Source of the DNA: Nitrospira sp.
GTDB taxonomy: Bacteria > Nitrospirota > Nitrospiria > Nitrospirales > Nitrospiraceae
DNA: 64,000 bases
Assembly: GCA_035968315.1 (NCBI GenBank)
Contig: JAVYIN010000003.1
Span: forward strand, 248,001 to 312,000
Direction: 5' to 3'
Part shown: in pieces, positions 1 through 61,662 of the stretch
Layout of the letters: every line of letters begins with the position of its first letter
Numbering within the stretch: the first letter of the stretch is position 1
Translations under genes and position numbers: made by a program
Notes under the pieces: model-generated
What the model was told of the DNA's origin: nothing
What the model saw: only the letters and a program-made list of their open reading frames with translations
Databases searched by the model: none

Positions 1-429
1 ATCCATGTTGATCACTTCCACCGCATGCCCATTCCGCACGATCGTCATAAAGGGCAGAAACAAACAGTCGCGCGCCTCGATCAGGGGCACGGAAATTTCA
101 AACGGCTTGCCCGACTCCACCCCCTCCAGGAGCACGATCGCATCCTTCAACCCCGCATTCGGCCCGACCACAAAATCTCGGAGCAGCCGCCAGCCACGGC
201 CATTCGAGATGCGTCCGCAATAGGCCGGATCGGGAAAGGTAATCAGGTTGAAGCCCTTGGGCTCGGGAATCGGACCATCCAGCCGCACGACACCTTCGAT
301 GGATCCGCCATGCGGCACGTCCACCACTTCATATGCCGCCGCCGGCAACACACCAACCGCCAGAACCAGCAGCCAGAGGGCCGCTATCGCCGCCTTGCTT
401 GCCCGCTGCCAAACCGCCTTGCCATTCAC
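1..429 (-). CDS. Secreted cupredoxin-like / carboxypeptidase-regulatory-like protein (3' end outside window)
   Basis: The reading frame runs off the left edge, so only about 143 N-terminal residues are visible. I chose the GTG at 429 because GGAGG lies 8 bases upstream; an in-frame ATG at 444 is the alternative. The N-terminus is a clear signal peptide (hydrophobic WLLVLAVGVLPAAA, then YEVVDV). The mature part has GGSIEGVVRLDG followed by P-rich spacing and DPAYCG, a pattern of periplasmic beta-sandwich proteins related to cupredoxins and methylamine-utilization-type proteins. It lies just downstream of the multicopper oxidase on the same strand, so a partner role in copper or electron handling is plausible but is inference. 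Copper ligands expected near the C-terminus are not in view. Confidence 0.6.
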   Translation of the reverse strand, partial: MNGKAVWQRASKAAIAALWLLVLAVGVLPAAAYEVVDVPHGGSIEGVVRLDGPIPEPKGFNLITFPDPAYCGRISNGRGWRLLRDFVVGPNAGLKDAIVLLEGVESGKPFEISVPLIEARDCLFLPFMTIVRNGHAVEVINMD

Positions 430-46240: not shown

Positions 46241-47170
46241 TCAGGCTTTGGCACGCCGCGCCTGCCGGGGGAAAAACTTCCGATGCACCTGCGTCAGCCG
46301 CCCGCGTTCGACATGCGTATAGATCTGCGTCGTCGCAATGTTCGCATGGCCCAGCATCACCTGCACGGCGCGCAGATCGGCGCCGCCCTCCAATAAATGC
46401 GTGGCAAACGAATGGCGGAGCATGTGGGGAGAAATCGGCTTGGCAATCCCCGCGCGCCTGGCCCGCTGCCGCACAATTTTCCAGAAGGCCTGTCTGGTCA
46501 GCGCCCCGCCGCGCCGCGAAACAAAGAGCGCGCGCGACGACCGCCGCCGAAGAATGACCGGCCGCACCTGCTCGAGATACTGCACCAGCGCCTCGCGCGC
46601 GGCCTCTCCAATCGGCACCAGCCGCTCTTTCGCCCCTTTTCCGTACACCCGCACACATCCGACCGTGAGATCCAGCCGCGCCAGCTCCAGCGCAACAAGC
46701 TCCGACACCCGCAACCCCGAGGCATACATCAGCTCCAGCATCGTCCGATCGCGCGCATCCTCGACCGTCTGCACCGCCGGCAACTCCAGCAAGGCCGTCA
46801 CTTCCGCCATCGTCAAGGTACCCGGCAGCTTGATCCCCCGCCGCGCCGTGGCAAGATCCCGAGTCGGATTGGCCTCAATAATCCCCTCACGCACCAGAAA
46901 CCGAAACCACCCGCGCAGCGCGGACACCGTCCTCGCCATCGAAACCGGCGACAGGCCCTCCGCATTCAATGATGCGAGAAATCCCACCACCTGCGGCGGG
47001 GACACCGGCGCATCCATCGGGAGTTGCTGCCGGTTCAGAAACGCTTGCAGCTTGGAGAGATCACGCCGGTATGCCTCCAGCGTATTGGTCGCCAGCCCTC
47101 CCTCGACACGAAGGTGGCTCAGGTACCGCTCAGCCAGCGGGTCAAGATTCTGCTCGAGAAGTTGTGCCAT
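46241..47170 (-). CDS. xerD: Site-specific tyrosine recombinase XerD
   Basis: This 309-residue protein has an N-terminal SAM-like DNA-binding domain (RVEGGLATNTLEAYRRDL) and a catalytic domain with the full residue set: Arg in SGLRVSELVAL, Lys in GKGAKERLVP, His/Arg in SPHMLRHSFATHLL, His in LGHANIATTQ and Tyr in IYTH. Length and N-terminus fit chromosomal XerD rather than a phage integrase. It resolves chromosome dimers at dif. It lies near tRNA genes but no attachment sites are evident. Confidence 0.92.
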   Translation of the reverse strand: MAQLLEQNLDPLAERYLSHLRVEGGLATNTLEAYRRDLSKLQAFLNRQQLPMDAPVSPPQVVGFLASLNAEGLSPVSMARTVSALRGWFRFLVREGIIEANPTRDLATARRGIKLPGTLTMAEVTALLELPAVQTVEDARDRTMLELMYASGLRVSELVALELARLDLTVGCVRVYGKGAKERLVPIGEAAREALVQYLEQVRPVILRRRSSRALFVSRRGGALTRQAFWKIVRQRARRAGIAKPISPHMLRHSFATHLLEGGADLRAVQVMLGHANIATTQIYTHVERGRLTQVHRKFFPRQARRAKA

Positions 47171-58737: not shown

Positions 58738-59100
58738 ATGCAGTCCCGAGGTCGCCACCGCATTCCCGTCGGCTATCCGGCCAATATCCAAAGTGATACC
58801 TGCGCCGGTGAAGGCACCTTGCTCGACCTCTCGCCCACGGGCTGCAGAATGCGCAGCGACATTGCGCTAGATGCAGGCACCTACCTGGCGCTCGAGATCG
58901 CGGTGGCCCAGGAGCCAGCCCCGCTGGGAGTGGAAGTGTCCGTGGTCCGCTGGTGCAAGGACGGCCAATTGGGAATTGAGTTTCTTCGGTACCGCCAGGG
59001 AGACCGCGAGCGGGTCACGCATTTCGTCGAAACCATGCCCTCGTATCACGCCCCCGTCTCGGCCTACGCAGAATCAACCCTCAGCGCCGCCAGCGTATAG
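58738..59100 (+). CDS. PilZ-domain c-di-GMP-binding protein
   Basis: AGGAGGGC precedes ATG 58738. The 120-residue product is a single PilZ domain: RGRHRIPV near the N-terminus supplies the RxxxR motif and LLDLSPTGCRMRS the D/NxSxxG motif. VVRWCKDGQLGIEF is the usual last strand. It probably changes partner interactions on binding c-di-GMP. No motility or polysaccharide gene is adjacent. Confidence 0.82.
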   Translation: MQSRGRHRIPVGYPANIQSDTCAGEGTLLDLSPTGCRMRSDIALDAGTYLALEIAVAQEPAPLGVEVSVVRWCKDGQLGIEFLRYRQGDRERVTHFVETMPSYHAPVSAYAESTLSAASV

Positions 59101-59430
59101 CCCAATCTCCGCAAAAATCACGTTCACAAATAGAACCCCTGAGCGGGCTCGACCGAAGAGAGAGTTTTTCTTTTCCCTGAAAGACTTTCGGTAGATTTTC
59201 CGGTTCTGATGTTGCCTTGCGCTTGATGCCACCCGCACAAAAACTAGTCAAGGCGAGAAATCTAAAAAGTCTACTCACTCCTTGCCAAGAAACGACTCAT
59301 CACGGATCAGAGTGATGTCTGTCCGTAAACACTGCGCTTTTCAACTAGCCGCACTTCTTGGCCAGAAACGGACTGATTAGATGAGCAACCTGTTACCCCT
59401 GCACTGAAAAGTAACTGCTCTTTTCAGATT
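59101..59430. other. AT-richer intergenic region before the attC site
   Basis: 330 bases without a gene. It contains an 8-bp hairpin CTGAAAAG/CTTTTCAG (59404-59427) and two loosely similar segments (CTTGCCAAGAAACG near 59281 and CTTGGCCAGAAACGG near 59356). The base composition drops relative to the neighbours, consistent with foreign DNA. Confidence 0.4.
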
Positions 59431-59493
59431 ACCTAACGTTACATTAAGGGGCACGCGGCTTTTGGCGTGTCCCTCTCGAGTGCCATGTTAAGC
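59431..59493 (-). other. attC recombination site of an integron-type cassette
   Basis: Read on the minus strand the 63-base site begins GCTTAAC (RYYYAAC) and ends GTTAGGT (GTTRRRY). Between them AGGGACACGC and GCGTGCCCCT form an imperfect hairpin around CAAAAGCC, with the expected bulge/mismatch. It begins 23 bases after the stop codon of the ABM gene, as in gene cassettes. Confidence 0.7.
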
Positions 59494-59857
59494 ATAGCTA
59501 TGGCGATTGCCATGCCTTAGAACTCTTTGTAGTAACTGCTTGTTGGATCACAAGCTAAATGTGTAGCAATGTGGCTCCAAAAACCAGATGACACCATACC
59601 TTCGAAAAATTGTTTATGCTCGGCTTCAGATACCCACGTTTCGACCAGAGTAAATGTACAAGGCTCGTTGACGTCATTGAATATTCGAAATGCCTTGCAG
59701 CCAGCGACTTTAGGGACGTCAATTTTTGCTTGGTTCAGTATTTCTACAAACGCCGCTAACTTTTCAGGCTTCGATTTAAAAGTGACGATTACATTTGTAC
59801 TCATGGTGTTTCCCCTAAAAGATTGCGGCAGATAAAAGGCGCTGCCGCTCCGCCTAA
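59437..59857 (-). mobile_element. Single integron-type gene cassette
   Basis: The interval runs from the TTAGGC boundary (59857) to the G of the attC core (59437) and has length 421 bases, with one gene and its attC. The gene starts 48 bases inside the left boundary. No integron integrase or second complete attC is visible, so this is a lone cassette rather than a full integron. Confidence 0.6.
59517..59804 (-). CDS. ABM-domain (antibiotic biosynthesis monooxygenase-like) protein
   Basis: ATG 59804 has AGGGGAAA upstream. The 95-residue protein has the dimeric alpha-beta barrel pattern: NVIVTFKSKPEKLAAFVEIL, GCKAFRIFNDVNEP, FTLVETWVSEAEHKQFFEG. Members include monooxygenases, quinone-related enzymes and haem-degrading proteins; His or other catalytic residues cannot be assigned. 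Its base composition is clearly lower in GC than the surroundings. ABM genes are frequent cargo of integron cassettes, which agrees with the attC site downstream. Confidence 0.8.
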   Translation of the reverse strand: MSTNVIVTFKSKPEKLAAFVEILNQAKIDVPKVAGCKAFRIFNDVNEPCTFTLVETWVSEAEHKQFFEGMVSSGFWSHIATHLACDPTSSYYKEF

Positions 59858-59858
59858 C
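59852..59858 (-). other. Cassette boundary core site GTTAGGC
   Basis: GTTAGGC on the minus strand is the consensus crossover site, 48 bases before the ABM start. A complete attC upstream is not recognisable, so this could be the remnant of an attI or of a second attC. Confidence 0.5.
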
Positions 59859-60225
59859 AACGTTTGCGGACAGGAATAGGAACAGGCTACTTTTTGTACC
59901 ACAGCGTGTCAACCAGACGAGGGAGACAATTGCCCGCGTGTGCCGGGGCTCCTCGCTGACGTTGCCGAAGGAGCGGGGACCCACCGAGACTTAACCAAGA
60001 GGGGAAGCTGAAATTATCAGCGGGTGGCACGGCGAACTGGGCGACTTTCTCACCCTCCCAGCCCTGCCGCGCCAAGACGCGGCTTTTCACCAAGGGCGCG
60101 CAACGAAAGGGCCCCACTGGGGGATGGGTGGAGTGAGCACGGCGGGGCTGTTCTCCGTGACAGGCCCCGCCGCCTCAGGAAGCTGGGCCAGGGACAGGCG
60201 CCGGCGATGCCGGAGCCAGTCCCCG
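59859..60225. other. Intergenic region between the cassette and gltD
   Basis: 367 bases. It holds a GC-rich hairpin near 60146-60176 (GGCGGGG arms) that may terminate gltBD transcription on the minus strand. A 76-codon open frame at 59887-60117 (minus) has no ribosome site and a composition unlike a protein; I do not call it. Confidence 0.4.
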
Positions 60226-61662
60226 TTACTTTACTGCCTGTTTTGCGGATTTTCCCGCTTGCAGATACTGATTGATCCCCGCGGCCATCTTGCGGCCTTC
60301 GGAGATCGCCCAGACAATGAGGGAGGCGCCGCGCTTGGTGTCGCCGCCGGCAAAAACCCCGTCGAGGTTGGTCATGAAGCCTTCGTCCACCGACACCGCG
60401 CCGCGCTGATCGTACTTCACGCCGAGGCTGTCGAGCAGGCCGTTCTTCACCGGACCGGTGAAGCCCATGGCGAGCAAGACAAGATCCGCATCCATCTCGA
60501 AGTCGCTGTTCGGAATTGGCGTGAACTTGCCGCCCTCGAACTTCACCTTGTTCCCATGCAGCTTGGTGACCTGGCCGTTGTGGCCGGTAAACTTAGTGGT
60601 CGAAATGCTCCACTGCCGGTCGCAGCCTTCTTCATGCGCATGCGAGGTCCGCAGCTGCATCGGCCAGAGCGGCCAGGGCGTTGAACTGGCGCGGGTTGGA
60701 GGCGGCTCCGGCAGCAATTCAAACTGATGCACTTCCGCGCAGCCTTGGCGATGGGCGGTGCCGACGCAATCGGACCCGGTATCGCCGCCGCCGATCACGA
60801 TCACCCGCTTGCCTTTGGCCACGATGGGCTCGTCCGTGATGGGAATGCCCGCCGTGCGCTTGTTCTGCTGGGTGAGATATTCCATCGCGAGGTGCACGCC
60901 CTTGAGCTCGCGCCCTGGGATCGGCAGCTCGCGCGCCTGCTCGGCGCCCATGGTTAAACCCACCGCATCGAACTGCTTGCGCAGTTGTTCGCCCGTGATG
61001 TCTTTCCCGATCGTGACGCCGGTCTTGAAGTCGACGCCTTCGGCCTTCATCTGCTCCAGCCGCCGGTCAATGACCCACTTTTCCATCTTGAAATCGGGAA
61101 TGCCGTAGCGCAGCAAGCCGCCGATGCGATCGGCCTTCTCAAACACGGTGACACTATGTCCGGCGCGCGCCAGTTGCTGCGCGGCCGCTAACCCGGAGGG
61201 GCCGGACCCGACGATGGCCACGGTCTTGCCCGTCTTGACGACCGGCAAAATCGGCTCGACGTAGCCCTCGTTGAATCCCCGATCAATGATGTTCCATTCG
61301 ATGATGCGGATCGACACCGGATCTTCATTGATGCCGAGGACGCAGGCGCCTTCGCAGGGAGCCGGACAGAGCCGGCCGGTAAATTCGGGGAAGTTGTTCG
61401 TGGTATGGAGCGCCTTGAGCGCGTCTTTCCAGCGGCCACGGTAGACGAGATCGTTCCACTCGGGAATCAGATTGACCACCGGGCAGCCGGTCGAGCCCTG
61501 GCAGAACGGCACACCGCAATCCATGCAACGGGCGCCCTGGACCTTGAGCTTGTCCTCGGGGATCGGCTCGTACATTTCCTTCCAATCGAGCACGCGCAAC
61601 TCGACCGGTTTCCGCTTGGGGCCCTCGCGGGCATATTTCATGAAACCTTTTGGATCGCCCAT
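60226..61662 (-). CDS. gltD: Glutamate synthase small subunit GltD
   Basis: This 478-residue flavoprotein feeds electrons from NAD(P)H to the large subunit. N-terminal Fe-S cysteines are CMDCGVPFC (about 46-54) and CPAPCEGAC. The FAD site is VAIVGSGPSGLAAAQQLA and the NAD(P)H site VIVIGGGDTGSDCVG; the closing FAD block is GVFAGGDTKRGASLIVWAI. Length matches the beta subunit of GOGAT. It follows gltB by 13 bases. Confidence 0.96.
   Translation of the reverse strand: MGDPKGFMKYAREGPKRKPVELRVLDWKEMYEPIPEDKLKVQGARCMDCGVPFCQGSTGCPVVNLIPEWNDLVYRGRWKDALKALHTTNNFPEFTGRLCPAPCEGACVLGINEDPVSIRIIEWNIIDRGFNEGYVEPILPVVKTGKTVAIVGSGPSGLAAAQQLARAGHSVTVFEKADRIGGLLRYGIPDFKMEKWVIDRRLEQMKAEGVDFKTGVTIGKDITGEQLRKQFDAVGLTMGAEQARELPIPGRELKGVHLAMEYLTQQNKRTAGIPITDEPIVAKGKRVIVIGGGDTGSDCVGTAHRQGCAEVHQFELLPEPPPTRASSTPWPLWPMQLRTSHAHEEGCDRQWSISTTKFTGHNGQVTKLHGNKVKFEGGKFTPIPNSDFEMDADLVLLAMGFTGPVKNGLLDSLGVKYDQRGAVSVDEGFMTNLDGVFAGGDTKRGASLIVWAISEGRKMAAGINQYLQAGKSAKQAVK

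Follow-up and report, generated by a model that had tools for sequence, protein, structure and literature searches.

Known integron systems

An integron is usually described as one integrase, one attI site and one array of cassettes. A lone cassette lying without an integrase is known in kind, from CALIN and from secondary sites; Loot et al. have reportedly devoted a paper to attG sites. CALIN are detected by IntegronFinder 2, by default, from at least two attC sites, and two of them are reported in Ca. Nitrospira inopinata; attI sites are said to be poorly described outside class 1 (PMC9024848 for all three points). For the delta-attI1 sites, a minimal core 5'-AAACAAAGTTRRRY-3' is given in PMC12901181.

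Structure of the cassette

The window (the whole stretch of 64,000 nucleotides of Nitrospira sp. DNA that was analysed) carries one short gene between gltD and a PilZ-domain gene, and is organized as follows.

58738-59100, plus strand: PilZ-domain gene (PF07238, E 2e-10), a flank conserved in many relatives
59201-59436, no strand assigned: stretch past the attC, in which comparison with relatives showed no homology
59431-59493, minus strand: attC site of 63 nt (covariance models R1, 22.7 bits, and R2, 31.0 bits)
59437-59857, minus strand: gene cassette of 421 nt between two G|TT crossover points, boundaries GTTAGGC and GTTAGGT, GC 0.451 versus 0.607
59517-59804, minus strand: ABM-family gene, 95 aa (PF03992, E 1.9e-9)
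59852-59870, minus strand: presumed attI remnant TCCGCAAACGTT|GTTAGGC, with the core AAACNNNGTTRRRY at 59852-59865
59884-59912, minus strand: promoter-like TTGACA-N17-TAGCCT, 25 nt before the junction, the only match in the window
60226-61662, minus strand: gltD, conserved flank

On the minus strand the cassette extends from G|TTAGGC to G|TTAGGT, with a G|TT boundary on both sides of its single short gene. The attC begins with GCTTAAC and ends with GTTAGGT, the R' box, at 59431-59437. An earlier note on this DNA had described a 63-base site with RYYYAAC and GTTRRRY ends, placed 23 bases past the stop of a low-GC gene; the site was recovered exactly, as was the 23-nt gap from the final base of the gene (59517). 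The GTTAGGC announced before the gene start is also present (59852-59858), at 47 nt from the ATG at 59804 and not at 48. When both strands of the 64 kb were searched for RYYYAAC...GTTRRRY pairs (50-130 nt, 7/7 box positions pairing on the top strand), this attC was the sole case.

The gene has a GC content of 0.406 against 0.607 for the window, where no other 288-bp stretch is that low, and its composition is foreign to its surroundings. An AGGGG, noted by eye, precedes its ATG. It was found in one of the 76 genus genomes, its own, the other 75 having been searched without finding it; vertical conservation with normal composition, named beforehand as the outcome that would speak against a cassette, is not what is observed. 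Relatives of the protein were found on two Rhizobium plasmids (41%), and none by pattern scan of genome contigs or of viral contigs. Comparison with the PDB gave one weak match (E 0.0052) and comparison with NCBIfam gave no match near its cut-off. Going by its family, the protein may at a guess be a small cofactor-free monooxygenase.

Two other elements are visible around the locus. Just past the attC, at 59404-59428, lies a hairpin CTGAAAAG/CTTTTCAG, picked out by eye and possibly a terminator. Downstream of gltD, positions 60020-60170 belong to a dispersed repeat with many copies in the genus, one more of which is found in the same genome (C7:455995-456143).

Covariance models and folding of the attC

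Models were trained on attC sites of class 1 integrons on plasmids and of integrase-bearing genomes of the same genus: R1 on 11 sites, the window site being excluded, and R2 on 25 sites, none from the window. One integron contig (G060), which may be a contamination of that assembly, has attC sites of 68-80% GC, which were included in R2 all the same. R1 scores the window site at 22.7 bits, comparable to class 1 attC sites outside its training (dfrA14 20.9, dfrA17 20.4 and dfrA27 20.0, named after the plasmid annotations), with an E of 0.087 over the whole genome. R2 scores it at 31.0 bits (E 1.1e-4 in 198 kb), and the fold and the RYYYAAC and GTTRRRY boxes of an attC are there. The covariance search suggested by the earlier note thus accepts the site. 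The word "canonical" used there is nevertheless a little strong, since six columns of the R2 alignment to the site are flagged as non-standard pairs and the fold with forced R boxes is weak: -7.6 kcal/mol on the bottom strand, versus roughly -11 to -40 kcal/mol for accepted class 1 sites, and -6.1 on the top strand. Pairs of the R2 alignment, which was itself fitted to the structure, covary well above shuffled and slid controls.

The specificity of R2 also shows in 39 stretches totalling 129 kb, all but one of which lie downstream of gltD: a single stretch had hits, and these were just two sites and their reverse strands. In a whole-genome search in which R2 scored 150 of 3205 candidates, neither the window site nor a 40.5-bit site on contig C8 was listed. 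A scan by regular expression and forced fold did not return the 63-nt site of the window, and the covariance models were used instead. Rfam at its gathering threshold gave two tRNAs only and no attC family.

Integron integrase

A search of the genome (99.97% complete) with TIGR02249 gave nothing above the cut-off of 265 bits, which extends the absence of an integrase noticed earlier to the genome as a whole; an intI beside the cassette, the mark of a complete integron, is lacking. The best match, of 85.3 bits, maps to positions 46304-46498 of the window, in a recombinase that is presumably a Xer protein. Among 79 genus genomes, 10 have an intI match at E<=1e-60 and 8 exceed the TIGR02249 cut-off. 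At five integrase loci (L049, L052, L056, L059 and L134), an attC or attI was seen downstream of the intI 3' end, on the strand of intI.

The gltD-PilZ interval in relatives

Several relatives also have PilZ and gltD on either side of this place, with differing cargo between them; GIY-YIG, Hcp-like and PIN genes are guesses made by eye. The nearest relative, G014, whose PilZ protein is 90% identical, has another gene in the interval, and its homology to the window stops at about 59200 and returns at about 59882. For the left flank (59101-59437), matches were limited to the genome itself and a 73-nt segment of G014. The empty site expected by the earlier note did not turn up: G014 and the other intervals that were read all hold other genes.

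The R2 scan downstream of gltD covered 50 other genomes (38 + 13, one in both), with several stretches ending at contig ends and one 95-bp gltD-side stretch left out. The sequences place an attC (E<1e-3) at the gltD locus in three of them: G003 (39.5 and 33.5 bits), G026 (51.6) and G051 (30.0). A further candidate in G015 reaches 11.5 bits (E 2.9). All are in the orientation of gltD, as in the window. The promoter motif of the window is common to the gltD side of G014, G015, G025, G051 and others; TTGACA-N-TAGC occurs in 22 of the 52 gltD-side stretches besides the window, and could just represent a promoter type widespread in these organisms.

The upstream junction

The upstream junction reads AAACGTT|GTTAGGC, which has the attI core form AAACNNNGTTRRRY. 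Within 342 kb there are 395 GTTRRRY sites, and five of them have this core: the window junction, two of the attI copies in the same genome, the attI of G015 at its gltD locus, and the gltD-locus junction of G026, where an AAAC core stands ahead of the cassette. Four loci that came in through the attI search (L167-L170) are left out of the count, which serves as a check rather than a blind test, the core having been noticed beforehand. For equal base use, a match at one given site has a chance of about 1 in 256. By gapped alignment the window junction scores 6.5 and ranks 8 among 419 GTTRRRY sites, tied with one unrelated site, a rank that taken alone is only suggestive.

G015 offers the closest comparison. 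At the same place and behind the promoter that it shares with the window, it has an attI 3' half (profile positions 92-167, nhmmer E 1.9e-9), followed by GTTAGGC and then by a gene; the two junctions align as TCCGC--AAACGTT|GTTAGGC in the window and TCCGCCTAAACATT|GTTAGGC in G015. Applied to 53 gltD-side stretches, including that of the window, the attI nhmmer profile found no longer attI except in G015. It does not report the window junction, where only an attI-type core stands next to the cassette.

A dispersed, presumed attI element

The attI sequences belong to a repeat of about 165 bp, which was traced via attC hits on other contigs of the same genome. It is homologous to the sequence found 15-19 bp past the 3' end of intI in G051, G074, L134 and L137 (the G074 and L137 records contain only the end of intI). 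Its own 3' end is CTAAACAT(T/A)G|TT, and of 52 copies, 45 have the GTT at the junction and 20 the complete GTTRRRY. For 59 of 67 copies, the 60 nt that follow the element contain the start of an open frame of 60 codons or more, versus 17 of 67 in the opposite direction at the other end. A motif TTGA[AC]N-16..18-TATNNT was counted in 32 of the 52 copies, where shuffling gives a mean of 0.085. R2 gave 49 hits (E<=0.5) in 32 of 45 pattern-matched records, 43 of them downstream of an attI, and its specificity is apparent from the strand, which is that of the attI for all 49. Sequence of intI lies within the available stretch in two of the 45 element-bearing records. The element is present in 60 of 76 genus genomes, with at least 11 matches in the richest one among the matches listed; across the order, 57 of 117 genomes have it, belonging to 8 of 24 genera. 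On these sequence comparisons we read it as the promoter-bearing attI of an integron family of Nitrospira, which for the most part has spread with no integrase beside it.

The genome studied (G000) contains six full or partial copies outside the window, each 9-42 nt before a different gene.

C8:160670-160850: element copy
C7:381629-381795, minus strand: element copy
C3:63564-63718: element copy
C3:64574-64690: element copy
C9:93826-93980, minus strand: element copy
L106:5797-5862: partial element copy, on C5

An attC is found near three of the six (29.6-40.5 bits) and is absent near the other three. The C7 and C8 cassettes have about 75 nt directly past their attC in common (L104:6742-6819 and L103:6208-6286), as well as the attI before them, as would be seen if two distinct cassettes had inserted into copies of a single target.

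The GGCTAAC...GTTAGCC ends of the C8 copy, noted by eye, led us to consider the repeat as a long attC. This reading was rejected because RYYYAAC stands beside the 5' box in none of 25 copies and because four records have the start of the element 15-19 bp behind intI. The 25 copies are those of the 52 in which the 5' box was found by pattern, and the C8 copy was not flagged by that pattern.

Origin of the cassette

Whether the cassette had been captured at a secondary site or remained from an array was left undecided in the earlier note; its view of a single cassette without integrase stands, and a remnant is now favoured. Probably, an integron here has decayed and lost its integrase, its attI has shrunk, and this one cassette is what is left of it. 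This is preferred to capture at a random site on account of the attI core at the junction, the attI 3' half in G015 and the attC sites at the gltD loci of G003, G026 and G051. On this account, an integron integrase would have placed a low-GC ABM-family gene of foreign origin, together with its attC, at an attI between gltD and PilZ. That attI, formerly complete at the junction, would since have been reduced to about 19 nt. The integrase, now absent from the genome, would have recombined the folded bottom strand of the cassette attC with the attI. TTAGGT, the last six bases of the attC, would presumably come from the target, and TTAGGC would belong to the cassette. When the one differing base is swapped for the cassette's own, the predicted forced bottom-strand fold goes from -7.6 to -8.8 kcal/mol, which agrees with this assignment, as a hint from a single base and no more. 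Transcription of the gene probably starts from the promoter-like motif (59884-59912) that lies 25 nt ahead of the junction, and the cassette would not be expected to move without an integrase in trans.

Capture at a secondary (attG-type) site, in a leader behind a host promoter and with the core reflecting the target preference of the integrase, is a less likely account, to which we give perhaps one chance in a handful. The match to the attI core is short, neither intI nor a full attI is present at the spot, and for IntI1 it is established that insertion can take place away from att sites (PMC12901181 and PMC10127599). This account has to reckon, however, with a recognisable attI half at the same place in G015, with the AAAC core before the gltD-locus cassette of G026, and with the rarity of the core, missing at 390 of 395 sites while its four other carriers are integron junctions. 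That an ordinary horizontally acquired gene lies by accident beside an attC-like hairpin, for instance a terminator, we hold to be very improbable. The weak forced fold and the R1 E value of 0.087 in the genome would fit it, but no T run follows the hairpin on the strand of the gene, both G|TT boundaries are present, R2 gives 31.0 bits, and cassettes with attC occupy the same locus in other species.

For the decayed integron and its relatives together, we lean by a small degree towards a dispersed integron system of Nitrospirales: scattered, integrase-free attI and promoter pads of about 165 bp, several per genome, would each feed a different captured gene, the integrase being kept in few genomes and acting in trans or transiently, and the window cassette would sit on a worn-down pad at the recurrent gltD locus. 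No description of such a dispersed promoter-bearing attI in Nitrospirales was found in the literature searched, whose accessible portions mostly leave subscription papers outside, so that its absence is unproven. If attI pads with promoters are scattered in Nitrospira chromosomes, cassette capture there would be a genome-wide process, and tools keyed to an integrase or to at least two attC would largely miss it. Dispersed pads would also provide a concrete test, in environmentally important nitrifiers, of whether one integrase serves many sites in trans. Within that picture, the cassette of the window would be a modest case, with its one gene on one worn-down pad.

Comparison with known systems

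The locus resembles a class 1 cassette such as that of aac(6')-Ib/aacA4 (L088:5032-5103) in having one gene, a short 3' gap, an attC with R and L boxes, and G|TT boundaries; TCGAG.GGGAC and CCCCT..ATGT..AAC|GTT are, by eye, common to the aacA4 attC and that of the window. It differs by the lack of an integrase in the genome, by a weaker R-box pairing in the integrated form and by being a single cassette. The integrons at L049, L052, L056, L059 and L134 have intI and cassettes in the same reading direction, unlike class 1 integrons. With CALIN the locus has in common an attC without an integrase; it has one attC where CALIN are called from two, and it also has an attI-type core. Finally, the window core has the same minimal form, AAACNNN-GTTRRRY, as the delta-attI of class 1 and 2 integrons in PMC12901181. 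As described there, the delta-attI core replaces the attC downstream of a gene, whereas the window core stands upstream of its gene, in a chromosome without integrase, and resembles the Nitrospira attI family.
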